Below, in pieces: positions 13,518 to 32,422 of a stretch of DNA of 34,001 bases (its first letter is position 1; each line of letters begins with the position of its first letter). Position numbers and translations under genes: made by a program. Below the pieces are notes generated by a model that did no database searches, was not told the DNA's origin, and saw nothing but the letters and a program-made list of their open reading frames with translations. The stretch lies in the NCBI GenBank assembly GCA_029862185.1, contig JAOTXX010000044.1:1-34001 (forward strand), in the 5' to 3' direction. The DNA is from Myxococcales bacterium (GTDB lineage Bacteria > Myxococcota_A > Polyangia > Polyangiales > Houyiibacteriaceae).

Positions 13518-13575
13518 CGGGATATGGTATTCCCGACTGCGCAATCGTTCCAAGCAACTTGGGTCGACAAGGGCG

Positions 13576-13581
13576 TATACT
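13576..13581 (+). promoter_or_regulatory. Possible -10 element of the sugar-nucleotide operon
   Basis: TATACT lies 19 bp upstream of the ATG of the epimerase gene, and a strong GAGGGGGAG ribosome-binding motif fills the last ten bases. No good -35 hexamer lies 16-18 bases upstream, so this could be an activator-dependent or alternative-sigma promoter, or a chance match. Confidence 0.3.
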
Positions 13582-13600
13582 CATCGGGCACGAGGGGGAG

Positions 13601-14578
13601 ATGAAGAAGATCCTGCTGACGGGGGCCGCCGGGTTCATTGGGAGCAACGCCGCAACGGCGCTGCTCCGCCGTGGGGATATGGTCGTCGGGGTCGACAACC
13701 TCAACGACTACTACGACCCGGCCCGTAAGCACGCGAACTTAGAGGAGGTTCGCGGCAGGGCGCCCGAGCCGGAGAAGCTCGTTTTTCACCGGATGGACAT
13801 CCGCGATGAGGCGGGGATCGAGGAGCTCTGCGCCAAGCATGGCTTCGACGTCATGATTCACCTCGCCGCGATGGCGGGCGTTCGCGCGTCCATCGACGAC
13901 CCGAAGCTCTACCTCGACGTGAATCTCGTCGGGACGCTGAATTTGCTCGAGGCTGCACGGCGCCACGGGCACCCCCCATTCGTCTTTGCGTCTACGTCCT
14001 CCGTCTATGGCCCGACGAAAGTGATCCCCTTCATCGAAACCGACCGAGCCGACCGCCCTCTCGCGCCGTACCCGGCGAGCAAGCGAGCGGCCGAGCTCCT
14101 CGGCCATTCGTACTTCCACCTGTTTGGGCAGGACTTCACCGCGCTTCGATTTTTTACCGTCTACGGACCGCGCGGCCGTCCCGACATGATGGCCTACAAG
14201 GTCTTGGACAACATCTTCGAGGGCGTGGAAGTCCCTCTCTACAACAACGGGCAGATGCACCGCGATTGGACGTACGTCGACGACATCGTCCAGGGCGTTC
14301 TCGCCGCCGCCGACCGACCGCTTGGCTACGAGGTCATCAATCTTGGGAGAGGCAAACCAACGCTTCTCGCCGATTTCGTGCGGCTCATCGAAGATCAGGC
14401 GGGCAAGCGCTCGAACCTGGTCGACAAGCCGATGCCTGCCGCGGACATGGAGTACACCTACGCAAACATCGATCGCGCCAAAGAGCTCCTCGGCTACGAG
14501 CCTACGGTGTCCGTCGAGCAGGGCGTCAAAGAATTCTGGAATTGGTATCGGGGTTCCGTCTTGGAGGCTCGGAAATGA
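13601..14578 (+). CDS. NAD-dependent epimerase, UDP-glucuronate 4-epimerase type
   Basis: A 325-residue extended short-chain dehydrogenase of the CapI/LpsL type, which interconverts UDP-glucuronate and UDP-galacturonate. Visible: the NAD-binding LLTGAAGFIGSNAATALL start, VVGVDNLNDYYDPARK (a hallmark of this subgroup), MIHLAAMAGVRASIDDP, the Ser of FASTSSVYGP, and the catalytic Tyr-Lys pair in YPASKRAAEL (Y157, K161), then RFFTVYGPRGRPDM. The ATG at 13601 follows a very strong GAGGGGGAG motif; the longer frame upstream is not coding-like. Its stop overlaps the next start (ATGA). It is the first gene of the four-gene plus-strand sugar operon. Specificity for glucuronate is by family resemblance only. 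Confidence 0.88.
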   Translation: MKKILLTGAAGFIGSNAATALLRRGDMVVGVDNLNDYYDPARKHANLEEVRGRAPEPEKLVFHRMDIRDEAGIEELCAKHGFDVMIHLAAMAGVRASIDDPKLYLDVNLVGTLNLLEAARRHGHPPFVFASTSSVYGPTKVIPFIETDRADRPLAPYPASKRAAELLGHSYFHLFGQDFTALRFFTVYGPRGRPDMMAYKVLDNIFEGVEVPLYNNGQMHRDWTYVDDIVQGVLAAADRPLGYEVINLGRGKPTLLADFVRLIEDQAGKRSNLVDKPMPAADMEYTYANIDRAKELLGYEPTVSVEQGVKEFWNWYRGSVLEARK

Positions 14579-16512
14579 TTAGCCGGCTTCGGACGCGAAC
14601 GTCGCAGTTTTTGATCGACATCACCGTGCTAATGCTCGCCTTCGTCCTTGCGATGCTCGTCCGTTTCGACTGGGACGTGCCGGGCTTGATGTTTCGACAG
14701 TTGATGATCGTGCTGCCCTACGTGGTCCTCTTGCAATACGCGTTCCTTTCCGGGTTTGGGATCACGCGCTTTTCGTGGCGCTACATCGGCCTTCGCGACA
14801 CGGTTCGGATCTTCGCCGCGATTTCCTCCGCGACGGCGGTACTGGTCGCGCTTCGCCTCGCAAGCCCGATGCTGGTCGACCGCTTTCCGATTGCACGGTA
14901 CGGCATCGTTCCGCTCGGCGTCTTGCTCGGCGACTTCGTTTTGGCGTTCATCGGTCTCTCGGGCGTCCGAGCGCTTCGACGAATGCTGGGGGAGCGCCTG
15001 GCGAGCAATCAGCACAAGCGCGAGGAGAAGCCCCGGGTGCCGACCTTGCTCGTCGGTGCGGGTCAGGGCGGGGTCCTGATCGCGCAGGAGATCGCGCGCC
15101 GCCCCGACCTCGGCATTCGCCCGGTCGCGTTCGTCGACGACGACCCAGTGAAGCAGGGCGCCGTGATTCACGGAATCAAGGTTCAAGGGACGAGTAAGGA
15201 GCTGTTGCGTGTCGCCGAACGGCACGGCGCAACTCAAGCCCTCATCACGATTTCCAACGCGCCAGGGTCGGCGATTCGCCGCATCACCGAGCGCTGCAAG
15301 GAGGCGGGCCTCAAGGTGAAGATCGTGCCTGGCGCCTACGAAATCGTTGGCGGGCGGGTGAACCTCTCCCGCATTCGTGAAGTGGCCATCGAGGACCTCC
15401 TGCGCCGAGAGCCGGTGAAGCTTCAGACCGAGGTGGTGAGCGAGCTCGTTCGCGGGCAGCCGGTGATGGTGACCGGGGCCGGAGGCAGCATCGGTTCGGA
15501 GCTCTGTCGTCAGGTCGCCGCGTACCGCCCTTCCCGCCTGGTGCTCGTCGAGCGCTCCGAAAACGCCCTGTTCGAAATCCATTCCGAGCTCTCCAGGCGG
15601 TTCTCCGAGCTCGAAGTCGTTCCTTGCGTCGCCGACATCATCGACGTGCCGCGCGTCACGCAGGTCTTTCGCGACTACCGGCCGATGATCGTGTTTCACG
15701 CGGCCGCCCACAAGCACGTCCCGATGATGGAGTGGAATCCAGCCGAAGCCGTGAAGAACAACGTCCTTGGCACTCAGATCATCGCTGACTTGGCCGATCA
15801 ACTCGCGGTCGAGCGCTTCGTGATGATTTCGACCGACAAGGCGGTGAACCCGACATCGATCATGGGCGCGACCAAACGAGCCGCGGAGCTCTACGTGCAG
15901 GCGCTCTCCACCCACAGCGCCACCCATTTTGCCACCGTGCGCTTCGGCAACGTGCTCGGCTCGGCGGGGAGCGTCATTCCAATTTTTCGCCGGCAGATTC
16001 AGGATGGCGGCCCGATTACGGTGACGCATCCCGAGATGACCCGGTACTTCATGACCATCCCCGAGGCTGTTCAGCTCGTCATGCAGGCGGCGGCGCTCAG
16101 TCAGGGCGGGGAAACGTTCATCTTGGACATGGGGCAGCCCGTCCGCATCGTCGATCTCGCCCACGACCTGATTCGGTTGAGCGGTCTCGAGCCCGAGAAG
16201 GACATTGAAGTCCAATTCACCGGCATTCGCCCCGGCGAGAAGTTGTTCGAGGAGCTTTCGAACACGAGCGAAGGGATTGAGCGAACGACACACCCGAAGA
16301 TTTTCACGGGCACCTACGAATCGCCGCACCTGCCTGGGCTTCGCGCACAGTTCGACACGCTCGGCGCGCTATGCACGGCCGTGAATCCAAACTCGATACG
16401 CCAGGCGCTGGTGCAGCTCGTGCCCGAATACGAAGACGACAGCCTGGACAGCGAGCCTCCTACGCGAACCGGCGAAGCGTTCAGGGAGTCTAAGCCCGCG
16501 GGGAGAGCTTGA
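14575..16512 (+). CDS. WbpM/PglF/CapD-type membrane nucleotide-sugar 4,6-dehydratase
   Basis: A 645-residue inner-membrane enzyme that probably removes water from UDP-GlcNAc (4,6-dehydratase) to start synthesis of deoxy amino sugars. Four hydrophobic segments occupy about residues 10-130 (for example IDITVLMLAFVLAMLV and VLPYVVLLQYAFL). A first Rossmann-like domain starts at TLLVGAGQGG (about 157) and the catalytic dehydratase domain at MVTGAGGSIGSELCRQV (about 297). The active-site Tyr is replaced by Met in MGATKRAAEL (about 430), as is normal for this subfamily. HAAAHKHVPMME, RFGNVLGSAGSVIPIF and TGIRPGEKLFEEL are family blocks. The ATG overlaps the upstream stop (ATGA) and has GGAGG upstream. 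Confidence 0.93.
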   Translation: MISRLRTRTSQFLIDITVLMLAFVLAMLVRFDWDVPGLMFRQLMIVLPYVVLLQYAFLSGFGITRFSWRYIGLRDTVRIFAAISSATAVLVALRLASPMLVDRFPIARYGIVPLGVLLGDFVLAFIGLSGVRALRRMLGERLASNQHKREEKPRVPTLLVGAGQGGVLIAQEIARRPDLGIRPVAFVDDDPVKQGAVIHGIKVQGTSKELLRVAERHGATQALITISNAPGSAIRRITERCKEAGLKVKIVPGAYEIVGGRVNLSRIREVAIEDLLRREPVKLQTEVVSELVRGQPVMVTGAGGSIGSELCRQVAAYRPSRLVLVERSENALFEIHSELSRRFSELEVVPCVADIIDVPRVTQVFRDYRPMIVFHAAAHKHVPMMEWNPAEAVKNNVLGTQIIADLADQLAVERFVMISTDKAVNPTSIMGATKRAAELYVQALSTHSATHFATVRFGNVLGSAGSVIPIFRRQIQDGGPITVTHPEMTRYFMTIPEAVQLVMQAAALSQGGETFILDMGQPVRIVDLAHDLIRLSGLEPEKDIEVQFTGIRPGEKLFEELSNTSEGIERTTHPKIFTGTYESPHLPGLRAQFDTLGALCTAVNPNSIRQALVQLVPEYEDDSLDSEPPTRTGEAFRESKPAGRA

Positions 16513-17453
16513 AGATTCTCGTGACAGGAGGCGCGGGTTTCATTGGCAGCCACGTCGCGGAAGCCGCTCTCGAAGGCGGCCATGAGGTGCTCGTGGTCGA
16601 CGACCTGAGCACCGGCCGGATGGAGAACCTTCCTCCAAGCGTGGAGTTTCACCCGATCGACATTCGGAATCGCGACGCGTTGCGGGAGATTGGGCTCCGC
16701 TTCGCGCCGGACGCGATCAGCCACCACGCCGCGCAGGCCAGCGTTTCGGTCAGTGTGCGCGAGCCGGCCCGCGACGCCGAGATCAACGTCTTGGGGTCGC
16801 TCCATGTCGCCGAGGTCGCCCTCGAGTGCCAGAGCCGGTTCGTTTTTTCGAGTACCGGCGGAGCGCTGTATGGCGAGGTCCCAGCGGGCCAAGTCGCCGC
16901 AGAGGGCTGGCCGGCGCGGCCGTCGAGCCCCTACGCCTGCAGCAAGGCGAGCTTCGAGCTCTACCTGCGGGCCTATGGGCAGGCCACCGGGCTGCGCTAC
17001 ACCATCCTCCGCTATGGGAACGTGTACGGGCCACGACAGGACCCCCACGGCGAAGCAGGCGTGGTCGCAATCTTCCTGCGGCGGTTGCTTTGCGGAGATC
17101 CGATTCAAGTCAATGCGCGCTCCACCGCGGGGGACGACGGCTGCATTCGGGATTACGTGTACGTGCGAGATGCGGTTCGGGCGAACCTCGCGGCGTTCGA
17201 AGGCGCGCTCGACGGCCGCACGATCAACATCGCCACCGGCGTTGGGACTTCGACGCGGACGCTTGCCGAGCGTCTGGTACGCCTCGTCGACCAGCCGGCT
17301 GTCGTCAACGACGGCGCCTTCCGCGCCGGCGACTTGGAACGATCGGTTCTGGACCCCTCCGTCATGATTTCCTCGCTCGGCGACCCGACTCCGTTGGAAC
17401 GCGGCTTATCGGACACGACCGAGTGGTTCCGCGAGGAGGTGCAGTCGTCATGA
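16509..17453 (+). CDS. NAD-dependent epimerase, UDP-glucose 4-epimerase-like
   Basis: A 314-residue extended short-chain dehydrogenase. It starts MKILVTGGAGFIGSHVAEAAL (GxxGxxG), has VVDDLSTGRMENL after the second strand and HHAAQASVSVSV, the Ser region FSSTGGALYGE, the Tyr-Lys pair in SPYACSKASFELYL, and RYGNVYGPRQDPHGEAGVVAIF. These point to the GalE/WbpP group, which epimerises UDP-hexoses or UDP-HexNAc at C4. The start is TTG overlapping the previous stop (TTGA, 16509-16512), with GGGGAGAG about five bases upstream. This rare start codon may keep its translation coupled to, and below, the dehydratase. The downstream ATG also overlaps its stop. The exact substrate is not determined. Confidence 0.88.
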   Translation: MKILVTGGAGFIGSHVAEAALEGGHEVLVVDDLSTGRMENLPPSVEFHPIDIRNRDALREIGLRFAPDAISHHAAQASVSVSVREPARDAEINVLGSLHVAEVALECQSRFVFSSTGGALYGEVPAGQVAAEGWPARPSSPYACSKASFELYLRAYGQATGLRYTILRYGNVYGPRQDPHGEAGVVAIFLRRLLCGDPIQVNARSTAGDDGCIRDYVYVRDAVRANLAAFEGALDGRTINIATGVGTSTRTLAERLVRLVDQPAVVNDGAFRAGDLERSVLDPSVMISSLGDPTPLERGLSDTTEWFREEVQSS

Positions 17454-18727
17454 GTGAACGGATCGCTGTGGTTGGGCTCGGGTATGTGGGTCTTCCGGTG
17501 GCCTTGGCATTTGCCCGCAAGTTCGAAGACACCGTCGGCTTCGACGTGTCCGAGGCCCGAGTGAGCGCACTGGCTGGTCATCGCGACTGGACCGGCGAGG
17601 TGACCCAAGCGGAGCTCGAGGAAAGCAGCCTGCGGCTGACGAGCGACCCCGCGGACCTTCGTGGCTGCACGTTCTTCGTGGTCGCGGTGCCCACACCCAT
17701 CGATTCGGACCGCCGTCCCGACCTCGGGCCGCTTCGCTCGGCGACGCGAATCGTCGGCAGCGCCCTCGCACCCGGGGCGGTCGTGGTCTACGAATCCACC
17801 GTCTACCCGGGCGTGACCGAAGAGCAGTGCGGGCCGCTCCTCGCCGAAACCTCCGGCCTGCGCCAATCGTCGGATTTCAAGCTCGGCTACTCGCCGGAGC
17901 GAATCAATCCCGGCGACAAGCTTCATACATTCGAAAAGATCATAAAAGTCGTTTCGGGCGAAGACCCGGAGAGCTTGGAGCGCGTCGCTCGTGCGTATGA
18001 AGCCGTCGTCGATGCAGGCGTCCATCGCGCGTCTTCGATCAAAGTCGCCGAGGCGGCCAAGGTCATCGAGAACACCCAGCGCGACGTCAACATCGCGCTC
18101 ATGAACGAGCTGGCCCTCATCTTCGACCGTCTCGACATCTCGACGCGGGACGTGCTCGAGGCGGCCGGAACGAAGTGGAACTTCTTACGCTTCACCCCCG
18201 GCCTCGTCGGCGGGCATTGCATCGGAGTCGACCCGTACTACCTGACCGCGAAAGCCGAAGCGCTCGGCTATCATCCGGAAGTCATTCTCGCGGGCCGCCG
18301 CATCAATGACGACATGGGCAAGTTCGTGGCGCAGCGAACGGTGAAGCTGCTCCGCAAGCAAGACCGTCCCATCAAGGGGGCGCGCATCGGCGTCCTTGGG
18401 CTGACCTTCAAAGAGGACGTGCCGGACTTGAGGAACAGCCGGGTGCCGGACATCATCGAGGAGCTTCGCGAATACGGCATCGAACCGGTCGTTCACGATC
18501 CAGTGGCATCCGCGGAAGAAGCGATTCGCGAGTACGGCATCGAGCTAAGGCCATTCGACGCGGTCGCAGACCTCGATGGCTTGATTCTCGCCGTTCCGCA
18601 TCGGCAGTACATGGACCAGCGCGACCGAATCGTTGCGAGCGTTCGCCAGGGCGGTCTGATCATCGACGTGAAGTCCGTGCTGAGCGCCGATGAGCTCCGG
18701 AGCGACCAGGTCTACTGGAGCCTCTGA
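17450..18727 (+). CDS. UDP-N-acetyl-hexosamine 6-dehydrogenase (WbpA/TviB type)
   Basis: A 425-residue UDP-sugar dehydrogenase that oxidises C6 of a UDP-HexNAc to the uronic acid in two NAD-dependent steps. Domains: N-terminal NAD binding (IAVVGLGYVGLPVALAFARKF shortened to the GxGxxG core at residues 9-14), PTPID (81-85), YESTVYPGVTEE (114-125), central helix with ENTQRDVNIALMNE (207-220), the catalytic cysteine C257 in GGHCIGVDPYYL, and the C-terminal UDP-binding domain with LGLTFKEDVPDLRNS. The TviB/WbpA/VipA branch is indicated by GHCIGVDPYYL and NTQRDVNIALMNE. The ATG overlaps the previous stop and follows GAGGAGGT. It is the last gene of the sugar operon; the convergent Wza-like gene ends 5 bp away. 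Confidence 0.94.
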   Translation: MSERIAVVGLGYVGLPVALAFARKFEDTVGFDVSEARVSALAGHRDWTGEVTQAELEESSLRLTSDPADLRGCTFFVVAVPTPIDSDRRPDLGPLRSATRIVGSALAPGAVVVYESTVYPGVTEEQCGPLLAETSGLRQSSDFKLGYSPERINPGDKLHTFEKIIKVVSGEDPESLERVARAYEAVVDAGVHRASSIKVAEAAKVIENTQRDVNIALMNELALIFDRLDISTRDVLEAAGTKWNFLRFTPGLVGGHCIGVDPYYLTAKAEALGYHPEVILAGRRINDDMGKFVAQRTVKLLRKQDRPIKGARIGVLGLTFKEDVPDLRNSRVPDIIEELREYGIEPVVHDPVASAEEAIREYGIELRPFDAVADLDGLILAVPHRQYMDQRDRIVASVRQGGLIIDVKSVLSADELRSDQVYWSL

Positions 18728-20686: not shown

Positions 20687-21286
20687 TTAGCTCACTCCAC
20701 TGACTGGTGGCGGGATAAAAGGAATCGGCCAGTCTATCACGGGGTTCGTCACGGCAGGATTCTCGTCTGGGACGAAGAGGTCGACGTCTTTTCGTACCTG
20801 CGTCTCGCCCGTGTCGAAGAGGTCTTGCCCCACGCACTGGTTTGCGGCCTGGGCCAAAGCCTTGGACTTCTGGGAGAGGACGCCGATCACGGTAAACTCG
20901 TGGTTGCCGCTGCCGGAGTCGCCGGCGGCAATCGCTTGATCGAGGGCCGCCTGCCGGCGCTTCATGCTCTGCAGGCTGGCGTTGCACTGGTCGAGCTTGT
21001 CCCTGAGGCAGGTCGCTCGAATGATGTCGCTCTCGCGCTTGGCGCCCTTGAGGGCCTGCGATTGCGCCGCGCAGCTTGCCGATGCGCTCTTCAACGCAGA
21101 CCGCGCGGCTTTGGCCTGTGCCGCCGGCGAGAGCGATCCGGCTTCGTCAGGCGCTCCCAGCGGCTCGACCTGGATGACGTCGAGGGTCGAGTCGCTGGCC
21201 TCCTGGGCGAGGGCATAACCTAGGCTTCCTCCGACCAAGAGCGCGGCGAGAAGCGCCCGTCCCACGGTTCCCATACGACTAAACAT
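20687..21286 (-). CDS. Periplasmic helical protein of the export operon, function unknown
   Basis: The 199-residue product has a Sec signal peptide (VGRALLAALLVGGSLGYALAQ, shortened; cut near residue 28). The mature part is a long Ala/Lys/Gln-rich helical region (about 50-125) with cysteines at regular places (ASCAAQ, ATCLRDKLDQC, NQCVGQ), followed by a Pro-rich tail (NPVIDWPIPFIPPPV). It is probably a coiled-coil periplasmic protein. I do not recognise a family. The ATG at 21286 lies seven bases after TAGGAG; the TTG one codon upstream is less likely. It is the first gene of the minus-strand export operon and follows the strong promoter at 21311-21338. Confidence 0.75.
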   Translation of the reverse strand: MFSRMGTVGRALLAALLVGGSLGYALAQEASDSTLDVIQVEPLGAPDEAGSLSPAAQAKAARSALKSASASCAAQSQALKGAKRESDIIRATCLRDKLDQCNASLQSMKRRQAALDQAIAAGDSGSGNHEFTVIGVLSQKSKALAQAANQCVGQDLFDTGETQVRKDVDLFVPDENPAVTNPVIDWPIPFIPPPVSGVS

Positions 21287-21310
21287 CAACGATCTCCTAA
21301 ACTTGCGACG

Positions 21311-21338
21311 ATTATACGCCGCGCGATTCTCGTGTCAA
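21311..21338 (-). promoter_or_regulatory. Near-perfect sigma-70 promoter of the export operon
   Basis: On the minus strand TTGACA (complement of 21333-21338) and TATAAT (complement of 21311-21316) are both full consensus matches, separated by 16 bases. Transcription would begin near 21304. The ribosome-binding motif TAGGAG (complement of 21294-21299) and the ATG at 21286 follow at normal distances, giving a leader of about 20 bases. It separates the export genes from the upstream Glt-like operon, so the two can be expressed independently. Confidence 0.85.
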
Positions 21339-21384: not shown

Positions 21385-22848
21385 CTAATTTTGAGGCTGA
21401 AAAACAAACGGATAACGGAACGTCACGCTGCCCCCATCAGGCCCCGGGTTGAATCGAAAGCGGCTGATGGTGCGCGTCACACAGGCAGCGACGGCAGGGC
21501 TGCCGGTCGTATTCTCGGTGGCCTTGGCATTTGTCACGTTGCCACGTTCCTGGATGGTGAACGTCACGGTGACTTTGCCTGAAAGGCTGGGGTTCTTGCG
21601 AAGCTCGGACTCGTAGCAGCGTGTGATCGACTTGAGGCGCTGTTTGATCTGCCGTTGAACCAGCGCTTGATCGAAGTCGCCGCTGCCGCCGATGTCCCCT
21701 CCGGTGTTGAGCCCGACGTTTCCTCGTACTTCGCGCTCTTTGACCGCTTGGCCTTCCTGCGCGGCCTTTCCAGCGCCCTTGCCCTTCTTGAGCGAGCCGA
21801 GGCCGGCCTTCTGCCCACTGCCCCCGCCGCTTCGCGTCCGCAGCTTGCCCGCTTCGCTCTTGGTCGCGACGCCGATACCGGACGCCTGTGCGAGGACGTC
21901 TGCGGCGTTGCCCGTGACCGCGCCGCCGGAGAGCACGTCTCCAAGCGCGCCGCCCGAGCCGCCCAGGGCTCCCAACAGCATCGCTTCGGCCTGCGCGGCA
22001 GCTTCTTGCGCAATGCGTGCGCGGCCTTCCGCGGTTGCGCCGGTCGGCTCTTCGCCCGGCGGCTCCCTGCCCTCGGCCTTCACGGGTTTCTTGTCGGGAG
22101 CTTTGCCCGCGGCCTTTTCTTCTTCTTCCTCTTCGCCCTCACCTTCTTCGATCGGCTCCTCTTCGACCGTGGGCGGTTCCATGGGGGCTTCGAAGATGAG
22201 GCGTGCGAGGTTTTCAGGCACCTCCTGGACGCCCCTGTCGACCTTCCAGTCGGCGTTCTCCATGTAGATGATGAAACCGAAGAACATCATGTACGAAAAG
22301 ATCACCCAGGTGGTGAACGTCCAGTCGATGTTCTTGACGAAGCCTCGCTGCACCGCGGCTGGGAGCTGTGGCTTCGGGGTGATGGGCGGTGCCGAGACGA
22401 ACTCGAAGAAGACGGTGAAATCGCCGATTCGGATGTTGCCGCGCGACGTATCAGCGAGCTTGATCTGGTAGTGGGTACCGGCGTTGCGCGCGGCGCCGGT
22501 GTCGCGCAGATGCTCGAGCTTCTGCACTCCGCCGGGCAAGGCGATCTTGCCGGTCATCTCGCCGGTGAAGTTCAGGATGTAGTCGTCGCCAACCAGCTGA
22601 AAGAGCTCGAAACGCGACTCGAGCTTCGGGGGCAGCGTCCCGGCCCGGATGATGAGGTGGTTTTTGGCTGCGGTGCCGATCGAGACGGTTTCCCGACGTC
22701 GAACGATGCGTTCTTCGACGATCTTCTTATCTCGAAAGAGGCCGACCCGCAGGACTTTCGACCCCGCCTGCTTCCCGGGAACGGCCTGCATCGCCTGTGT
22801 CATGGCGCCAGGACGGGTTCCCTGCCTCGGACTCCGCGGTTGGGCCAT
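21385..22848 (-). CDS. GltG-like protein: FHA-like region, one membrane segment, AgmX/PglI C-terminal domain
   Basis: The 487-residue product has a cytoplasmic N-terminal region (about 30-150) with FHA-like spacing (VSIGTAAKNHLIIRAG, GDDYILNF, IRIGDFTVFFEF), one membrane segment at about 175-196, an acidic Glu/Pro linker (220-250) and Gly/Ala-rich spacer. It ends in an AgmX/PglI TonB-like periplasmic domain (about 395-487: CYESELRKNPSLSGKVTV, GSPAVAACV, FRFNPGPDGG). This matches the architecture of GltG/PglI in Myxococcus, where such proteins carry inner-membrane energy to periplasmic and outer-membrane parts. The ATG overlaps the upstream stop (TGATG). It is the last gene of the Glt-like operon. 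Another TonB-like system is the alternative. Confidence 0.85.
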   Translation of the reverse strand: MAQPRSPRQGTRPGAMTQAMQAVPGKQAGSKVLRVGLFRDKKIVEERIVRRRETVSIGTAAKNHLIIRAGTLPPKLESRFELFQLVGDDYILNFTGEMTGKIALPGGVQKLEHLRDTGAARNAGTHYQIKLADTSRGNIRIGDFTVFFEFVSAPPITPKPQLPAAVQRGFVKNIDWTFTTWVIFSYMMFFGFIIYMENADWKVDRGVQEVPENLARLIFEAPMEPPTVEEEPIEEGEGEEEEEEKAAGKAPDKKPVKAEGREPPGEEPTGATAEGRARIAQEAAAQAEAMLLGALGGSGGALGDVLSGGAVTGNAADVLAQASGIGVATKSEAGKLRTRSGGGSGQKAGLGSLKKGKGAGKAAQEGQAVKEREVRGNVGLNTGGDIGGSGDFDQALVQRQIKQRLKSITRCYESELRKNPSLSGKVTVTFTIQERGNVTNAKATENTTGSPAVAACVTRTISRFRFNPGPDGGSVTFRYPFVFQPQN

Positions 22849-23105
22849 CAGAAGGGCTCCTTTTGGACGGTGCGAACCACTTTGCGAAGAAAGCTCGTAC
22901 GCAGCTCGAGCACTTCGTAGCCCAGGTTGGAACGATTCAGAATGTAAAACGCGTTCGGTTTCTGCACGCGGCCCTCGATGACAATTTCTTCGAGCTGGAT
23001 GACACGAGGCTGCCGCTTGTTTTTGGCCCTCTGAGCGAGGCCGGCGCTCGCCGTCGCCGCGACGAGCATCAGAGCAAGCAAGATCGCCGAAGTCGCACGT
23101 TTCAT
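22848..23105 (-). CDS. Small secreted protein, GltF-like by position
   Basis: An 85-residue protein with a signal peptide (about 1-25, ending in ASAGLAQ). The mature part starts basic (RAKNKRQPR) and contains VIQLEEIVIEGRVQKPNAF and LNRSNLGYEVLELRTSFL, the first of which recalls the TonB-box/plug style IEEIVIEGR sequence of outer-membrane partner proteins. No known domain is assigned. It starts inside the stop of the TPR lipoprotein gene (ATGA) and its stop overlaps the next start (TGATG), so it is firmly within the operon. In Myxococcus the gene at this position is gltF; the match here is by place and size, not proven sequence homology. Confidence 0.75.
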   Translation of the reverse strand: MKRATSAILLALMLVAATASAGLAQRAKNKRQPRVIQLEEIVIEGRVQKPNAFYILNRSNLGYEVLELRTSFLRKVVRTVQKEPF

Positions 23106-24418
23106 GAAGCGCCTCCCTGTTCGCGCTCGAGCTGACGCCGCGCTCGTTTAATCATTCGGTCCAAGTCTCGGAGATACTCCTCCGATTGATCGTCTTTGGC
23201 TAGGCGCGGCCCCATTTCCCTCCGGTATCGATTGAGCTCGTCCACGGCCTTCTCGTAGGCGGTGAGCGCGTCGAGGCCCGGAAAATCGCCAGCCGCAGAA
23301 AGGAATAGCAGGCCCAGGCCGTAGTGTGCCTCAGGGAGCTTCGACTGCAGCTCGAGGGCTCGCCGGTACGCGCGCTGAGACTCCGTCCACTGCTTGGTAG
23401 CCCGGTACGCGTCGCCCAGGTTGACGTGCACCGCGGGAAGCGTCGGCACCAGGCGCTCCGCAGCCTGGAAGTGGGACAGGGCGCCCGGGTAGTTGCCGCC
23501 CGCCAGGAGCTGGATCCCTAGCGCCATCTGAGCCTCGGCATAGCTCGGGCGCAGCTGAACGGCGCGCTGGTAGGCTGCCATCGCTTCGCGCAGACGCCCG
23601 GGCTCAGTCTTGAGCCTTTCGCCGTCGAGGAAGTGGAGCTCGGCTACATTCGGGTCGACTTGCAGCGCCTGATCGAGGATCGAATCTGCGAGCTCGTCAC
23701 GGCCCTGCGCGCGGCTTGCTTTGAAGAGCGCGATGAGTGCGGGCACGAATCGCTCGTCGCACTTGAGCGCACGTCTCGCTGCCATCCAGGCTTCGTCGTA
23801 GCGCCTCGCTTCGACCAATACCTCGGCGTAGAGCGCCTGCATCTCGAGATTGGAGCGATACCGATTGGCTAGGGGCTCGACGGCCGCGACCGCGGCCTGA
23901 ACTTGGCCGCGTCGGATTTGGATCGTCGAAATGCCGCGCGCAGCCAGCTCGTAGTCGGGCAGCATTTGCAGCGCGCGCTGGTAGTCGTTGATGGCCTCGC
24001 GCTCGTTGCCCGCACGGTCAGCGAGAACGCCGAGATTGTACATCGCGGGGTAGGCGTTCGGGTCCCGCTTTAGCGCGGCTTGGAACTCCGCCTCCGCCTT
24101 GGCGTCATCGCCGGAAGCGGCCGCGCTCACGCCGGCGTTGAACGACCTGGTCGCCTTCGAAGACATCGTCGGGCGCGCCGGCCGGCGGCACTGCTCGGCT
24201 TGCGTTGCGCCCCACGGGCTTTCCGCGGGTTTGGTTGCCGTCCCTGCCGCGGTGGCTGGGCCGGGCTTGCCCTCGACCGGCTCGCCGCCGGCCATGGGCA
24301 CCTCGCCGCCCGAGCTCGGCTCCGAGTCGACGGGCGCCGAAGCCGACGAGCCCCTGCAGCCGTACGTGCCGAAGAGCATCGCAGCGATCAAGACCGCGGT
24401 CTGTACCCCCATGCGCAT
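23102..24418 (-). CDS. TPR lipoprotein, GltE/AglT-like
   Basis: The 438-residue product has a signal sequence with a probable lipobox cysteine (LFGTYGC, Cys21), then a low-complexity Ser/Gly/Pro linker (about 22-85). TPR repeats follow from about residue 87 to 390, for example AEAEFQAALKRDPNAYPAMY, REAINDYQRALQMLPDYELA and SQRAYRRALELQSKLPEAHY. The C-terminal helix is highly charged (YLRDLDRMIKRARRQLERE). The lipid anchor and TPR array match the outer-membrane lipoprotein AglT/GltE of Myxococcus. The start ATG overlaps the stop of the 1283-residue gene (TGATG); the much longer open frame upstream is a shadow of that gene. It likely binds GltD-like and other envelope parts of the complex. Confidence 0.85.
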   Translation of the reverse strand: MRMGVQTAVLIAAMLFGTYGCRGSSASAPVDSEPSSGGEVPMAGGEPVEGKPGPATAAGTATKPAESPWGATQAEQCRRPARPTMSSKATRSFNAGVSAAASGDDAKAEAEFQAALKRDPNAYPAMYNLGVLADRAGNEREAINDYQRALQMLPDYELAARGISTIQIRRGQVQAAVAAVEPLANRYRSNLEMQALYAEVLVEARRYDEAWMAARRALKCDERFVPALIALFKASRAQGRDELADSILDQALQVDPNVAELHFLDGERLKTEPGRLREAMAAYQRAVQLRPSYAEAQMALGIQLLAGGNYPGALSHFQAAERLVPTLPAVHVNLGDAYRATKQWTESQRAYRRALELQSKLPEAHYGLGLLFLSAAGDFPGLDALTAYEKAVDELNRYRREMGPRLAKDDQSEEYLRDLDRMIKRARRQLEREQGGAS

Positions 24419-27400
24419 CAGTTGTTCTCCTTGCTGATAGCAGGCGGGGCGATTCCAGGTCGAATCTCGAGCGGTTTGCCTCTGGGCGAGCGCGCGAATT
24501 CGCCCGGGGTGTAGCCTTGGAAAGTGGCATCGGCGGCCTGCGCCTCGGCGATGCATTCGGCAATGCGCTCGTCCCCGTACGCCTGGAGACGATCGATGGC
24601 GATGCGGGTGTACTGGTCGTCGAAGCTCCCGGCCCGGCCCGCGCGCGCTGCCAGGGCGTAACGCGCGACCGCGAAGCACTCCACCGGACGAACCTGGGTG
24701 TCGAGCACCTGGCGAACCTTGTCCTCGAAGTCGAGTTGGTACTCTTCGCGCTCGTATTCGTCGGCCTTGCGGAGCACCCGTTGCAGGTCGGTTGGAACGA
24801 CGACCGGGGTGTTGAGGATCGAACGCGCCAAGATTTCGTAAGCGCGCCCTTGGCGTACGTACGACGCGATCGTCCAGCGCGGGCGGCGGTAAGGGAAGAC
24901 CGGCTCGTAGCCGTTCGCGACCGACTGGGCCTGGGTGGCGCCGTTGCTCATCTGCTTGGTGATCGTCTCGATGTAGGCTTCGACGGTCTTTGGCTTGCCG
25001 GGCTTGATTTGGAAATTCTCGAAGCGGGCGAGCTTGCCGTCTACCAGGATGAAACGCGCCTCCGCGGCGTAGCCGGCGGCGATCGACCCCGCGGGCTGTC
25101 CGGTGCGCTGGAATGTCGCCGTCACGTCCTGGAGCGCGCTGCGGTAGTCGCCCATTCGGCCGCGCGCCTTCCAAGACTGGGCGATGCGCCAGTACGCCTG
25201 AACCAGCAGGTCACCGGCCTCCCCGTCGCCGCCGTAGGCCTTGATGAACTCTCGCATGCCGCTGATCGCCTGAGGATAGCGTTTTTGACGGTAGGCCATC
25301 TCGGCGATGCGATAGAGTGCGTTTCGCTTCGTGTTGGCGTCGTCGACCGTGGCGTACACGCGGCGGTAGTACTGCGTCGCTTCGGAATACCGCTGGAGGC
25401 GTTCGAGCAGAATCGCCGAGTTGACGAGACCGTCGGCGCGCTTGCTCTGCACCTCTGGGTCGGTCGATTTGGCAAAGCGCTGTGAATCGGCCAACACGCG
25501 GTAGTTGTCGACCGCTCGGTCGAAGTCGAAGTTGCGGCTCGCCGTGTACGCGAGCTTGAAGTGCGCGTTTGCCAGAATCGCGTCGAGGCTCTGTTGCTCT
25601 TCGGCGTCGGCTGCTTCGCGAGGCCCGACTTCGTCGATGATGCGCTGGTAGAGCTGAGCCGCCGAGTCGAAGCGGTTGGTGGCCTCGAGCGCAAGAGCTG
25701 CGTATTCGAGTGCGAGAGGCGCTTGCTTGTCGTTCGGATTGCTGTTGACCGCGGCGAGCAACATCGTGGCCGATTGCTCGTACAGAAGAACGCTTTCGCT
25801 GCCAGTCGTTTGGCCGGCTCGCTTGTAGACGTCGAGGGCGTCCTGATAGACGAGCGCGTTGAGGTCTGCGCCCGCGCGACAAATCGGCTTGTCGCGGTTG
25901 GAAGGCTTGCTGCAGTCGATCTTCGTGGCACCCGCCGTGAACGTGCAGCCGCGCTCTTGGATGTCGGTCGCGAGGCGGCGAATCTCGTCGCTGTCCTCCG
26001 TAGCCATCGCCATCGCGCGTAGATTCTCCCACGCGATTTGGCCGGTCGCATCGGCCTCCGCACCGGAGCAGCGTTCTTCATAGATTCGCGTGAAGCGGCT
26101 CTCGGCTTGTGGCCAATAGCCGTACCAGTAAAGCAGCAGCGCGTTGTTGTAGTCGTAGGCCGTGCGCACGCCTTCGGTATCGCGTTGGGGGCTCACCCGG
26201 CTCAGATAGATTTCCCTGGCGCGCGCCAGCCTTTGCACCGTTTCGGGCATTGCGGTGGGCTGAACCGTCGGCGGTTCGCCGGCTGGCGGCGGCGCTTCGC
26301 TACGAATGACCAAACGCCCCTCTTCGACATCACGATCGGCGATTCGCTTCAACGATTCGACCACGCGCCGCGCGGATTCAGCGAGGTAGCTGTCGTCCAC
26401 GTTCGAATCGCGAACCTCGGCGTATTCGGTCGCGGCCTGCTCATAGCTCTTGGACCAGTAGAGGGCGTCGGCGAGGTTGTAATGAAGCTCGTAGCCTTGA
26501 GGGTTGTTCGGGTATCGTTCGAGGTAGCTGCGATACGCGCTGGCCGCCAAGCCATACTCGGACTGCGAATCGCTGCAGAGCTTCACGTTGCGCTCTTGAA
26601 CGCACCGCTGACGAAGCCGTTGAGCAGCCTGGTGGTGGTGAATCGCGGTGACGATGAGCGCGTTCTCGGCGAGTTGCTCCGCGGCCCGCTGCTCCGACGG
26701 ACGGTCCATGTTGGCGTTCCACCATGGGCTGCCCTGCACGTATTGGGTGAGCTCCGAACGCGCTACGATGGCGTTTTCGAACTCGTTGTGCATCTGGTGA
26801 GCGTTCGCGATCTGGTTGAGAATCTCCGGCGTACGGTGATGGTTCGGCCACTTCGAGATCGCCATCCGCCACGCTGCGATGGCTTCAGGATACTTCGCTT
26901 CGTCGAAGTAAACCTGACCGAGCTGGAAGTAGACTTCGGGCGTCCAGGGCCTCTGCTGCGGGAGAAGCGAGGCGTCCTGGATGCGCTCGATCCCCGTGGG
27001 CCTACCCTCCACCGGATCGGCAACCTGGTTCTCGTTCCAGTCGTCGTACGCGAACGCGATGCCGAGGTATTCGATCGCCTCGGGCCGAAGCTCCGAGCCG
27101 GCCTTGCCCGTCTCCTTGCGCGTGTCGTCCGACCATTGGACGAGCTTGCCGAAGTTCTGGATCGCCTCGGGGTAGCGGCTCGCGCGATAGTAGGCCCAAG
27201 CGACTTTGTAGAGAGCGAGGTTGTAGTTGCGGTCTTCGCTGTTCTCCAAAATGCGCCCGTACGCTGCGATCGAAAGGTCCAGCGCGTGGTCGCCTCCGAA
27301 ATCATCGAAGTGGTGCTCGCCGATTCGGAACCAGGTTTCGCTGACGAAGCGGGCCTGCTCAGAAATGGGCTCACAGCGCGCATAGGCGTTGACGAAGACG

Positions 27401-28269
27401 CCGCCGACCGTCGCGCCGAGCGGCCGGCCATCGAGCGTCAAGGCGGGATACTTTGCTTGCGCTGCCAGCGATGCGTCGGCGGACGGCGGGCGCCAATCTG
27501 GGTTGTAGTCGTAGTTATTGGCGCAGACGAGCGCGAGCCAGGCGGCCAGCGCTTCCTCGGGGCGTCCCATTTCGTTGAGGGTGTACCCGATCAAGTAGTA
27601 CACGCCGTCCGAGCGCTCATAGTCGGGGAACCGACGTGCCAAGGACTTGTAGAGAAGCACTGTTGGCGTGAAGTCCGGCGAGCTCGGCAGTTGGTCTTCT
27701 GCGGTCAAGTCGCCGGCCTCGCGGGCCGCCTGTGCTTGGTCGTAGAGATTTTGGAACTCGACCGCGCTGCGTTCGAAGTAGAGCTCGCCGAGACGAAACA
27801 TCGCATCCGGCGTGTACTTGGGGTGGCTCGGATAGCGGCGAAGGAAGTCCTCGAAGACGCGGATCGAGCTTTCGCGGGCCTCGTTGAACTCGAGCTCCTC
27901 GGCCTCGAGCTGCTCGCCGTACCAACGGTCGCGCTCCCGCCGCTGCTGAAGGTATTCGCGGCGCACGAGGGATGTAACGGTGGAGCGAAACGCTTCTCCC
28001 GTTTGACCGAATCGCTCGACCTCTTCTTCGAGCTGTTTCAAAGCTTCGAGCTGTTGCTCGGTCGGAGGCGGGCGCTGGTCGACGATGCGTTTGCCCGTGT
28101 CCTGCAGGAATGGGGGCAAGCTGACGTCGGTGGCGCCTTCCCAGGGTGCGGCCTCCTTTGGTTCCGGGTCCGCCTCAGACTCCTGGGCAAAAGCGAGACC
28201 GGGGGGCGAGCAGGCCGCGGCCAGCGCCGCGATCCAAAGGAGCGATGCGAGCGGGTGACGCCTGCTCAT
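24418..28269 (-). CDS. Very large periplasmic TPR protein, GltD/AgnA-like
   Basis: The 1283-residue secreted protein has a signal at residues 1-28 (LLWIAALAAACSPPGLAFA); Cys20 may be a lipid site, or the cut may be after AFA. A Glu-rich coiled region (about 70-130) is followed by repeated TPR and TPR-like helix pairs across nearly the whole length (SSIRVFEDFLRRYPSHPKYT, DWRPP region, AKYPEAIAAWRMAISKWPNH, SAYRSYLERYPNNPQ, RYSEATQYYRRVY, KRYPQAISGMREFIKAY). No enzyme motif is visible, so it is a scaffold. Size, secretion and position directly upstream of the TPR lipoprotein match GltD (AgnA) of the gliding machinery. The ATG overlaps the stop of the 797-residue gene by four bases. Confidence 0.85.
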   Translation of the reverse strand: MSRRHPLASLLWIAALAAACSPPGLAFAQESEADPEPKEAAPWEGATDVSLPPFLQDTGKRIVDQRPPPTEQQLEALKQLEEEVERFGQTGEAFRSTVTSLVRREYLQQRRERDRWYGEQLEAEELEFNEARESSIRVFEDFLRRYPSHPKYTPDAMFRLGELYFERSAVEFQNLYDQAQAAREAGDLTAEDQLPSSPDFTPTVLLYKSLARRFPDYERSDGVYYLIGYTLNEMGRPEEALAAWLALVCANNYDYNPDWRPPSADASLAAQAKYPALTLDGRPLGATVGGVFVNAYARCEPISEQARFVSETWFRIGEHHFDDFGGDHALDLSIAAYGRILENSEDRNYNLALYKVAWAYYRASRYPEAIQNFGKLVQWSDDTRKETGKAGSELRPEAIEYLGIAFAYDDWNENQVADPVEGRPTGIERIQDASLLPQQRPWTPEVYFQLGQVYFDEAKYPEAIAAWRMAISKWPNHHRTPEILNQIANAHQMHNEFENAIVARSELTQYVQGSPWWNANMDRPSEQRAAEQLAENALIVTAIHHHQAAQRLRQRCVQERNVKLCSDSQSEYGLAASAYRSYLERYPNNPQGYELHYNLADALYWSKSYEQAATEYAEVRDSNVDDSYLAESARRVVESLKRIADRDVEEGRLVIRSEAPPPAGEPPTVQPTAMPETVQRLARAREIYLSRVSPQRDTEGVRTAYDYNNALLLYWYGYWPQAESRFTRIYEERCSGAEADATGQIAWENLRAMAMATEDSDEIRRLATDIQERGCTFTAGATKIDCSKPSNRDKPICRAGADLNALVYQDALDVYKRAGQTTGSESVLLYEQSATMLLAAVNSNPNDKQAPLALEYAALALEATNRFDSAAQLYQRIIDEVGPREAADAEEQQSLDAILANAHFKLAYTASRNFDFDRAVDNYRVLADSQRFAKSTDPEVQSKRADGLVNSAILLERLQRYSEATQYYRRVYATVDDANTKRNALYRIAEMAYRQKRYPQAISGMREFIKAYGGDGEAGDLLVQAYWRIAQSWKARGRMGDYRSALQDVTATFQRTGQPAGSIAAGYAAEARFILVDGKLARFENFQIKPGKPKTVEAYIETITKQMSNGATQAQSVANGYEPVFPYRRPRWTIASYVRQGRAYEILARSILNTPVVVPTDLQRVLRKADEYEREEYQLDFEDKVRQVLDTQVRPVECFAVARYALAARAGRAGSFDDQYTRIAIDRLQAYGDERIAECIAEAQAADATFQGYTPGEFARSPRGKPLEIRPGIAPPAISKENN

Positions 28270-30659
28270 GGCTCGCCCTCGCTGCCCTGATTCTGATCCA
28301 TCACGTCGCGAAACTCGTCGTCGAGCGCTTGAAGCTCACGCGCGCGTTCGCGGGTCAGGGTGTCGATACGGACCCTGTGGTCCTCGCGTCGTGCCCAGGA
28401 GACGTCGATTTTGCCGACGTCGGCGCGGAGGACCAGATCGTAGAAGCGATCGTGGATGCGGTTGAAGTTGAGATAGGTGATCGCGCCGACGACGTCTTCG
28501 GTCTCGCCTTCGAGCGAGCCGAGCGCGGCGCGATACCGCTGGAGGTTTGCGGTTTCCTCGTCGACGGTCGCCAACATCGTGGAGACGCGCCGCTTGACGA
28601 CGGCCGCCAGCTCGGCGTCACGCTGATCGAGCCGGCGCTCGAGGGCAGCCACGCGCGAGAAGGCTTCGTCGAATGGGGGGCCGCCAGAACCCGCAAGCTG
28701 GCGCTCGCGGCCGACCAGGTCGATGAACTCGTCCCGCTCCACGTCGTCGGCCTGGTATCGCTTGTCGCCTACGCCCACGTGGAGACGGCCCACTTCGAGG
28801 CGGCGCCGAATCCAGATGAGCTGCTCTTCGTACTCCTTGATTTCCCCTTCGTGTTCGTTGAGCTCTGCGGCGAGGGCCTGCGGATCGGCCTTCTGCGGGT
28901 CGATCGATGGCAGGCCTGCCCTCGAGGCCACGATGCGCGCTTCGAGACCCAGGATTTCGATCCGGAGTCCCTGCAGATCTCGTTCGGCGGCCCTGAACTC
29001 CCCGAGCCGCTCCATGTCTCGGTCGACGAAATCCTCGGTGCCGACCGGCATCTTCATCACCTCGGCCTGGACCTCGCGACGTCGCGAGCGCACCGGCGCA
29101 ACTCGACCCGGAGGATTGCCCCGGGCTTGGCTCTCGGCTTCGATCAGGCTGCCGCGGGTGCGCGCGGCCCGGTTTCGAAGGCCGGTCGTCCGTTCGCGTT
29201 GACGGCGGAGGTCGGCAAAGACGCTGATGCGGTTCGGCGCGCTCAGAGCAGCGGTGATCCGTTCGGCGAGATCGTTGGTCTCTTGGACGAGCTGCTTGGC
29301 CTCGCTGAGGTCCGCGAGCACTTCGAGTGCGCGCTCGTAGTCGCCTTCCAGCTCGATCCAGCGCCTGGCCGACTCGGGGAGGAAGTCGTCAATCTCGAAA
29401 TCGTCTAGGTTTTCGCGGACAACCTTTCGGAAATACGCGTGAAGATCGGGGTATTCGCTGTGCTTGGCCGAGAGCTCGTCGCGAATGGGACCGAATGTGG
29501 ACCGCACCTCGTCGAACACGACCTCGGCTTCGTCGTAGCGGCCGTTTCTCGCCAGGAGGTCACCCCGCAGCACCTTGCCATCCGCGTTGAGCGGGCTGTC
29601 GGGAGCGGCAACGGAGAGCACCTCGAGGGTCCGCTCTGCCTGGATGGCATCGCCTATGCGAATGTAGGTCCAAGCGAGCTCGAATAGCGCCTGATCGAAT
29701 TGAGCCGAGGTCCGGTCGACGGCGCGGTAAGCCTCAACCGCCTGCTCCAACTGCTCGGTTTCGTAGTACAGGCGCCCCAGCGCAAGATAGGCCAGCTCGA
29801 GGATTGCACGCTCCTCCTCGTTGGCAGGGTCGTGCCCCAGGATGCCGCGGAACGCTGCAATGCCGTCGAGGTACTCCCCGCGAAGGGTGTGAATGGTGCC
29901 AACGAAATACTTGGCGCGCAGTGAGAATTCGGTGCCGCTCGGGATGGCGAGAAAGCCTTTGCGCGCCTGCTCGAGGCGGCCCTGATCGACCCCGCGAATC
30001 GCGGTGCTGAGCGGGGCGTTGAGCACGTCGTCGACGGGCACGGCACGGTTGTACAAATACTTCGCTCGAAAGTACGCGGTCGTGATCGAGAGCGTGGAGG
30101 ATGGGATGGCGTCGAGACGCGAAAAGTAGCTGTCGACGTCACGGAAATCGCGCGTGTGGATCGCGATTTGAATGAGACGGCTGAGCGAGCGCTGCAGGTA
30201 CGGGGAAAACGGTGGCTGGGCGCCACGGTCGATCACCTGGGCGTAGCGCCGACGCGCGCCCAGGTAGTCGTCGGCAAAGAACAGCGACTCCCCGAGAAGA
30301 AAGAGTGCCTCCGGGTATGCGCGATGGGTCGGGTAGTGCTCGACGATGTCGGTCAGGAGAATGGCCGCGCGAAGGTAGTCCTCGAGCCGCAGGTAGAGCT
30401 CTCCGTCCGTTAGGCGCTCTTCGACGAAGGTCTCGCTCTTGAGGTCGAGGGGCCGCACCGGATCGGCCATCAGGCGCCGCGCGTCCGCTTCGAGGTCAGA
30501 TAGATCGCGGTTCGCCGCGGCCAGATCCTGGGCCGTGGTATGCGACACGAAGGACGTAAGGAGCCCAAGGGCCAGGAAGAAACCCAGCCAAATCCTTTGC
30601 ACCCGCCCCCTGCCTAGTGTCGGTGAGGGCGGCGATACGCTCGCGCCGCCAGGTCGCAT
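28266..30659 (-). CDS. Secreted TPR and coiled-coil protein of the Glt-like operon
   Basis: The 797-residue product has a signal peptide after a long N-terminal lead (hydrophobic core IWLGFFLALGLLTSFV, probable cut after TTA near residue 43). TPR-like repeats fill about 80-400 (LYLRLEDYLRAAILLTDIV, PEALFLLGESLFFADDYLGA, ALGRLYYETEQLEQAVEAYR). The second half (about 430-780) is Arg/Glu-rich coiled coil (LAAELNEHEGEIKEYEEQ, VAALERRLDQRDAELAAVV). The ATG overlaps the upstream stop (TAATG); a GTG at 30602 with a GGGGG motif would give a more normal signal peptide and may be the true start. Structurally it suits a periplasmic spacer or filament-like part of the envelope complex. I do not assign a Glt letter. 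Confidence 0.82.
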   Translation of the reverse strand: MRPGGASVSPPSPTLGRGRVQRIWLGFFLALGLLTSFVSHTTAQDLAAANRDLSDLEADARRLMADPVRPLDLKSETFVEERLTDGELYLRLEDYLRAAILLTDIVEHYPTHRAYPEALFLLGESLFFADDYLGARRRYAQVIDRGAQPPFSPYLQRSLSRLIQIAIHTRDFRDVDSYFSRLDAIPSSTLSITTAYFRAKYLYNRAVPVDDVLNAPLSTAIRGVDQGRLEQARKGFLAIPSGTEFSLRAKYFVGTIHTLRGEYLDGIAAFRGILGHDPANEEERAILELAYLALGRLYYETEQLEQAVEAYRAVDRTSAQFDQALFELAWTYIRIGDAIQAERTLEVLSVAAPDSPLNADGKVLRGDLLARNGRYDEAEVVFDEVRSTFGPIRDELSAKHSEYPDLHAYFRKVVRENLDDFEIDDFLPESARRWIELEGDYERALEVLADLSEAKQLVQETNDLAERITAALSAPNRISVFADLRRQRERTTGLRNRAARTRGSLIEAESQARGNPPGRVAPVRSRRREVQAEVMKMPVGTEDFVDRDMERLGEFRAAERDLQGLRIEILGLEARIVASRAGLPSIDPQKADPQALAAELNEHEGEIKEYEEQLIWIRRRLEVGRLHVGVGDKRYQADDVERDEFIDLVGRERQLAGSGGPPFDEAFSRVAALERRLDQRDAELAAVVKRRVSTMLATVDEETANLQRYRAALGSLEGETEDVVGAITYLNFNRIHDRFYDLVLRADVGKIDVSWARREDHRVRIDTLTRERARELQALDDEFRDVMDQNQGSEGEP

Positions 30660-31381
30660 TAGCGATCGCCCTCACCCATTTCGTCGGGTCGAACGGGACG
30701 CTCGACTCGTTCGATGTATCGGACCGCCGGCCGCTCTTCGAGCGGAGTCGCCGGACCACCCTTTTCGTAGCCCACCACGTGGACCGTCGAAACGCGGCCT
30801 TCCGGCACCGCGAAGGTGTACGTCGACCGCACCTTGAAGCGATACCCTTTGAGGTACGCAAAAACGCCGTAGCCGTGTCCGCGATACTCGAGGCTGACGG
30901 TGAGCGTGTGCTCGCCGGGAACGATGCTTCCGTTGTAGACTTCGAACTCTTTTTGATCGCCGAGCGTGCCTTCTTCGTCGGCCTTGGTGAAGATCGGCGC
31001 GCCGTCGAGGGCGTAGACCACCCTGACGAGCTTGTAGGACTTCGACATGCGGTTCTCGTGGACGATGGCCGCTTGGCCTCCGCCCACGACGCCTTCGAGC
31101 ACGGTTTCGGCGAGCAAGGAGAGCCGAGCCTTCGAACGGAAGATTTGCTCTTTCAGCTCGTTGATCCGCTGCTCTAGATCCCGAAGGCGTACCGCGTACG
31201 TGCCAGCGTCAATCGGCCTGCTGGGCGCGCTGGGCACGGCCGCTTGTGCTGGAGCTGAATCTGGAGCCGAGGCCTGCGTGCCGGTTTCCGGCGATGCGGC
31301 ACCCTCGGCCTGCGCCGCCGCAACGGAGCCCCCCACCCAAATGGACGCCGCAACAACGGAGAGCGCAACTATCCCGCGCAT
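30659..31381 (-). CDS. Secreted protein with coiled coil and beta domain, first gene of the Glt-like operon
   Basis: A 240-residue protein with a signal peptide (about 1-24, SVVAASIWVGGSVAAAQA). An Ala/Pro/Ser-rich linker (about 25-58) leads to a short coiled coil (YAVRLRDLEQRINELKEQIF). A beta-rich domain (about 100-205) contains VRVVYALDGAPIF, GSIVPGEHTLTVSLEYRGHGYG and FKVRSTYTFAVPEGR, an arrangement like the PEGA/carboxypeptidase-regulatory type of small beta-sandwich. The tail is rich in Arg/Glu/Pro. A strong AGAGGGGAA motif precedes the ATG, and the promoter at 31443-31472 lies upstream. Its stop overlaps the next start. It may attach the complex to another envelope layer; function is not known. 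Confidence 0.8.
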   Translation of the reverse strand: MRGIVALSVVAASIWVGGSVAAAQAEGAASPETGTQASAPDSAPAQAAVPSAPSRPIDAGTYAVRLRDLEQRINELKEQIFRSKARLSLLAETVLEGVVGGGQAAIVHENRMSKSYKLVRVVYALDGAPIFTKADEEGTLGDQKEFEVYNGSIVPGEHTLTVSLEYRGHGYGVFAYLKGYRFKVRSTYTFAVPEGRVSTVHVVGYEKGGPATPLEERPAVRYIERVERPVRPDEMGEGDR

Positions 31382-31442: not shown

Positions 31443-31472
31443 CTTATACCGCAGCGCAAGCGGCCGGGTCAA
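31443..31472 (-). promoter_or_regulatory. Sigma-70-type promoter of the Glt-like operon
   Basis: On the minus strand TTGACC (complement of 31467-31472) is followed after 18 bases by TATAAG (complement of 31443-31448). Each hexamer differs from consensus by one base. The transcript would have a leader of roughly 55 bases ending in AGAGGGGAA before the ATG at 31381. It lies in the 185-bp gap between the STAS-like gene and the operon, the only sizeable gap upstream of these six genes. Confidence 0.65.
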
Positions 31473-32394: not shown

Positions 32395-32422
32395 CGTCCA
32401 GCATGATATAAACCGATGCTCC

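Follow-up and report, generated by a model that had tools for sequence, protein, structure and literature searches.

Gene content and layout of the locus

The window, meaning the entire 34,001-nucleotide stretch of DNA that was analysed, carries six minus-strand genes between positions 31381 and 21385, encoding a 240-residue protein followed by the Glt-like proteins C, D, E, F, and G, with each ORF overlapping its neighbour by 1 or 4 bases (Table 1). A preliminary description of this DNA had recognised the gltD-E-F-G order in four of these genes and had proposed that two genes upstream are coupled to them by overlaps; the order was borne out (E and G by NCBIfam models, D by profile-profile comparison, and F weakly), and the 1- or 4-base overlaps were indeed seen throughout the six genes. 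The end of the unit at 21385 had been drawn too early, as three further genes (21289-18732), namely d200, a beta-barrel gene, and an OPX gene (together, the export trio), continue on the same strand in a conserved order. An Rfam scan of the window gave no match.

Table 1. Positions and supporting matches of the Glt-like operon, the export trio, and the adjoining sugar-nucleotide genes in the window.
Feature	Position	Strand	Support or remark
240-aa secreted protein, conserved family (240)	30659..31381	(-)	Signal peptide, disordered stretch, helix, 8-strand beta sandwich
GltC-like TPR protein, 797 aa, extra C-terminal coiled coil (C)	28266..30659	(-)	NCBIfam GltC, residues 68-410
GltD-like TPR protein, 1283 aa (D)	24418..28269	(-)	Profile-profile E 6e-44
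GltE-like TPR lipoprotein, 438 aa (E)	23102..24418	(-)	NCBIfam GltE 108 bits
GltF/CglF-like small secreted protein, 85 aa (F)	22848..23105	(-)	Weak: 25 bits, profile-profile 73%; position conserved
GltG-like inner-membrane protein, 487 aa, AgmX/TonB-like C-terminus (G)	21385..22848	(-)	NCBIfam GltG 162 bits, myxo_SS_tail 97 bits
Promoter-like TTGACA-N16-TATAAT before export trio	21311..21338	(-)	12/12 match
d200, secreted protein; likely ATG start 21286	20687..21289	(-)	Order conserved
Outer-membrane beta-barrel, EpsX/ExoB/WzpB position, 443 aa	19313..20644	(-)	Weak BBP2_2 match; adjoins OPX in all complete loci; PMC9601211
OPX polysaccharide export protein, short WzaB-type form, 202 aa	18732..19340	(-)	Poly_export E 3e-20 + SLBB
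Sugar-nucleotide genes convergent with OPX gene	12597..18727		Nucleotidyltransferase minus; epimerases, PseB-like 4,6-dehydratase, TviB-like C6-dehydrogenase plus

The promoter-like element before d200 is a perfect sigma-70-type sequence, and near-consensus copies lie at the same place in loci L063, L065, L067, and L068; separate transcription of the export trio is therefore also probable. By eye, we further noted TTGACC-N18-TATAAG near 31470, a candidate that could be the promoter of the six-gene unit. Upstream of the operon, the window encodes (i) a YtvA-like protein (31567-32607; a weak match to this blue-light receptor family), which is kept nearby in several relatives, and, next to it, (ii) a sigma-54 response regulator (32138-33820).

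Relationship of the operon proteins to the Glt families

Against the NCBIfam models, the C, E, F, and G proteins scored below the curated equivalog cut-offs, as is expected for paralogues. The 797-residue protein reached 84 bits with GltC (E 8e-24; cut-off 450), the E protein matched GltE against a cut-off of 225, the F protein matched CglF/GltF only weakly (cut-off 90), and the alignment of the G protein with GltG (cut-off 650) starts only at profile position 197 of 650. Profile-profile comparisons with a second glt set in the same genome (see below) gave E-values of 2e-29 for C, 3e-43 for E, and 5e-30 for G, in addition to that listed for D in Table 1, while F remained weak. The TPR genes are homologues of the Glt genes, and the 797-residue protein, which had been placed outside the Myxococcus gliding set, is a GltC homologue. 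A Pfam search found no FHA domain on the operon GltG-like protein.

The 240-residue protein and d200

The 240-residue protein belongs to a mostly single-copy family that is present in 54 of 57 near relatives drawn from its genus, family, and order, in 136 of the 188 Myxococcota genomes sampled, and in 66 of the 76 sampled genomes of the Myxococcus family. It gave no meaningful match in Pfam or NCBIfam and none to plasmids by tblastn, and d200 likewise had no family match in profile searches. In the structural model, the 240-residue protein begins disordered and continues with a helix and a sandwich of eight strands, and a fold search with this model returned transthyretin/Ig-like sandwiches at Z 8-9 and ∼10% identity. 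Since this sandwich is a common arrangement, we do not take the fold matches as evidence of function. A GltA/NfsA-type barrel was considered and ruled out, given the helix-plus-sandwich model and the lack of a match to an outer-membrane barrel family. Like d200, the 240-residue protein is probably an adaptor in the periplasm or at the outer membrane; an adaptor or glycan-contact role for it is a guess. A conceivable counterpart of its gene is the extra gene of the gammaproteobacterial core clusters, which is reported to be without a homologue in Myxococcales (PMC3169522).

Two genomes of one family carry a tandem duplicate of the 240-type gene (L052:14153-15721 and L054:13364-14922). Further, five loci (L059, L061, L062, L064, and L066) represent a third cluster type, which consists of a distant 240-like gene (∼25-30% identity), C, D, E, and G; no OPX gene was found within these stretches.

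Conservation of the locus and its probable counterpart in Myxococcus xanthus

Twenty-two loci, including the window, preserve the full order 240-C-D-E-F-G-d200-barrel-OPX; they span Polyangiales, Archangium/Myxococcaceae MAGs, and one complete Myxococcus-family genome (8,973,512 bp; locus L204), and the retention of this order in all of them rules out chance as its source. The presence of both the family and the whole gene order in this complete genome also speaks against the earlier view that the 240-residue protein lies outside the Myxococcus set. In some Myxococcaceae loci (L183, L187, and L188), ∼1.5 kb separate G from d200, leaving space for another gene.

In the complete Myxococcus-family genome, the operon locus lies at 2.32 Mb, two other OPX genes lie at 3.81 and 8.85 Mb, TIGR04565 barrels at 1.58, 2.95, and 3.95 Mb, and RQS motors at 3.54 and 8.16 Mb. 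The locus, OPX genes, barrels, and motors are collinear with MXAN_1915, 3225, 7417, 1327, 2539-40, 3371-72, 3003-05, and 6860-62, among which MXAN_3371-72 are nfsA/B. The MXAN numbers other than those of nfsA/B are from published work (PMC3169522, PMC9603273). From this collinearity, and from the gene order of the window at the 2.32-Mb position, we infer that the counterpart of the window operon in M. xanthus is the G4 cluster together with wzaB and wzpB.

In M. xanthus, G4 and M2 were reported in 2011 without a function; a polar mutation in MXAN_1922, the G4 gltD homologue, to which no function was assigned, leaves motility unaffected, as does deletion of MXAN_3004, the aglQ homologue of M2 (PMC3169522). 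MXAN_1915 and MXAN_1916 were described in 2020-2022 as WzaB and WzpB of the biosurfactant polysaccharide pathway (PMC7310880, PMC9603273). The M. xanthus G4, OPX, and barrel genes span eight locus tags, and the remainder of the polysaccharide pathway is ∼1 Mb off (PMC7310880), whereas in the window the sugar-precursor genes adjoin the OPX gene.

The exporter and its probable polymer

The OPX gene of the locus is the sole OPX gene in this genome. Its product comprises a Poly_export domain (residues 36-112) and an SLBB domain reaching to residue 197, with no long C-terminal part, and an OPX tree separated the proteins of the locus, including the WzaB position, from the EpsY and ExoA positions (split support 0.998). 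As in the known OPX/18-strand barrel systems (EpsX/EpsY, ExoB/ExoA, and WzpB/WzaB), the short OPX gene adjoins a barrel gene, which here is only weakly matched by BBP2_2; unlike the locus, none of these systems was found to be described alongside a Glt-like machine in the literature examined.

In two related genomes, loci L275 and L276 encode beside the OPX gene a sugar-nucleotide dehydrogenase, an epimerase, a PseB-like dehydratase, a Wzy-like polymerase, and a Wzc-like protein with a fused kinase domain, with a Wzx-like flippase additionally present in L275. The precursor genes of the window are of the same kinds, including the TviB-like dehydrogenase, which is predicted to make an acidic sugar. 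The M. xanthus biosurfactant polymer is rich in mannosaminuronic acid (PMC9603273). The export trio of a Sandaracinus-sized genome is 660 kb from the 240-G unit and has a Wzc-like gene nearby, and this neighbour agrees with the published contiguity of wzaB with the biosurfactant pathway in Sandaracinus (PMC7310880).

Motor genes and a second glt set

The preliminary description had noted the absence of motor genes and of other Glt parts. This is true of the window as regards the motors; the genome, however, carries on another contig (C161) two divergent AglRQS-like sets (L010:7169-11992), made up of a MotA/ExbB-type R subunit and two ExbD/TolR-type subunits. The arrangement of divergent motor sets side by side is kept in all seven of the Polyangiales genomes examined, and several Polyangiales genomes have a membrane-anchored protein (288 aa here) behind the AglRQS-type set. 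As for the other Glt parts, a second gltC-D-E-F-G set, which is more Glt-like, lies on contig C49 (L007:3755-12590) and encodes an FHA-bearing GltG (387 bits) and a GltC of 294 bits. The profile of the GltA/GltB-type barrels, TIGR04565, had no match in this genome. In a genome of the same genus (G016), the contig with the second GltC also has two TIGR04565 barrels. A GltJ search of our genome gave partial matches only, the best at 47 bits (cut-off 450).

In six distant loci (L192, L193, L195, L197, L198, and L199), an AglRQS-like RQS motor sits within the operon, between F and G, with C and F not detected in L195. Motor, G, and export trio are contiguous in L193, L195, and L197; L192 and L199 have no export trio next to G. 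When the R, Q, and S subunits were concatenated, the resulting tree grouped these in-operon motors with the M2-type set of this genome (MB; L010:10188-11992) and with the 3.54-Mb set of the Myxococcus-family genome (bootstrap 100), whereas the other set of this genome (MA) and the 8.16-Mb set, at the AglRQS position, fell apart from this group. Consistent with this, an R-subunit tree with TolQ/ExbB-type outgroups recovered the same split (support 0.973). On the basis of these trees and of the motor inside related operons, the most likely partner of the window operon is the M2-type motor, and that of the C49 gltCDEFG set is the AglRQS type. Wartel et al. reported that MXAN_3003, the M2 R subunit, binds neither GltG nor NfsG (PMC3858216), which fits a third partner.

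Proposed function

We consider it fairly probable that the operon encodes a G4-type Glt/Nfs trans-envelope machine which, together with an M2-type motor (unlinked here), is coupled to an acidic polysaccharide of the Wzx/Wzy type that leaves the cell by way of the OPX/beta-barrel pair. We infer this function, and the coupling of machine, motor, and export, from gene order and phylogeny, which suggest that machines of this type act on a secreted polysaccharide and do not serve to move the cell. An earlier proposal of a non-motility Glt-like machine beside an exopolysaccharide locus thereby gains support, as M. xanthus mutants in G4 and M2 keep their motility (PMC3169522). In the proposed mechanism, (i) the proton-driven M2-type motor would act on G; (ii) force would travel from the TonB-like periplasmic end of G to the outer membrane by way of the TPR proteins C, D, and E; and (iii) the force there would move or release the polymer emerging from the barrel. 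By analogy with the spore-coat polymer moved by Agl-Nfs and the slime moved by Agl-Glt, the machine probably acts at the outer membrane by moving, placing, or releasing polymer; Agl-Nfs is known to move the OPX-exported Exo polymer over the spore surface (PMC3858216).

Several observations weaken the coupling. The trio lies far from the 240-G unit in the Sandaracinus-sized genome and is not beside G in L192 and L199, its own promoter would allow it to be expressed apart, the motor is on another contig here and is paired by phylogeny, and the homology of F is weak. More tentatively, and on balance doubtfully, secretion itself may be motor-powered, with a proton-driven MotA/TolQ-type motor actively driving, gating, or releasing polymer through the OPX/barrel pair by way of a periplasmic G-C-D-E relay; on this view, the Nfs and gliding machines would have evolved later, out of this older function.

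G4, M2, and WzaB/WzpB were each known before; the joint locus, the motor inside the operon, and the pairing with M2 are the new points. A search of the article texts of the open-licence literature found no paper joining the three. G4 and M2 have been without a function since 2011 and WzaB has been called orphan-like, and one conserved locus joins them all. The locus also bears on the role of the gliding machine before motility, since a phylum-wide form of that machine is tied to polysaccharide export.

Alternative explanations

Three other readings were weighed against a machine coupled to polysaccharide export. The operon shares GltC, D, E, F, and G homologues, in order, with the Agl/Glt gliding apparatus of clusters G1, G2, and M1, and AglRQS-like motors are present in the genome, so that it could be the envelope part of that apparatus in this organism. 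We regard this as very improbable: the C49 set, by its FHA-bearing GltG and its scores, is the better Glt candidate, the G protein of the operon bears no FHA domain, the operon would pair with an M2-type rather than an AglRQS-type motor, the genome has no GltA/B-type barrel, and gliding is normal in the M. xanthus mutants of G4 and M2 (PMC3169522). It also appears quite improbable that the operon encodes an Nfs-like spore-coat machine, by which a coat polymer would be drawn tight around resting cells. The Agl/Nfs system of M. xanthus does share with the locus a homologous C-D-E-F-G order, a proton-driven RQS motor, and an OPX-exported polymer, Exo, as its cargo (PMC3858216); however, NfsA/B barrels are absent from both the operon and the genome, the OPX protein falls outside the ExoA-position group, and the locus differs further in its motor clade, in the extra 240 and d200 genes, and in having export genes of its own. 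Moreover, Nfs uses AglRQS, no binding of NfsG to the M2 R subunit was seen (PMC3858216), and the complete Myxococcus-family genome has the operon locus besides TIGR04565 barrels at the nfs position.

If the locus instead combined two independent neighbours by history only, a Tol/Ton-like envelope-maintenance machine and an exporter of polysaccharide, the separate promoter of the trio and its distance from the 240-G unit in one genome would be explained. We nevertheless consider this unlikely, as the adjacency is held across the whole phylum and, in L193, L195, and L197, the motor, G, and the export trio occur in one run.
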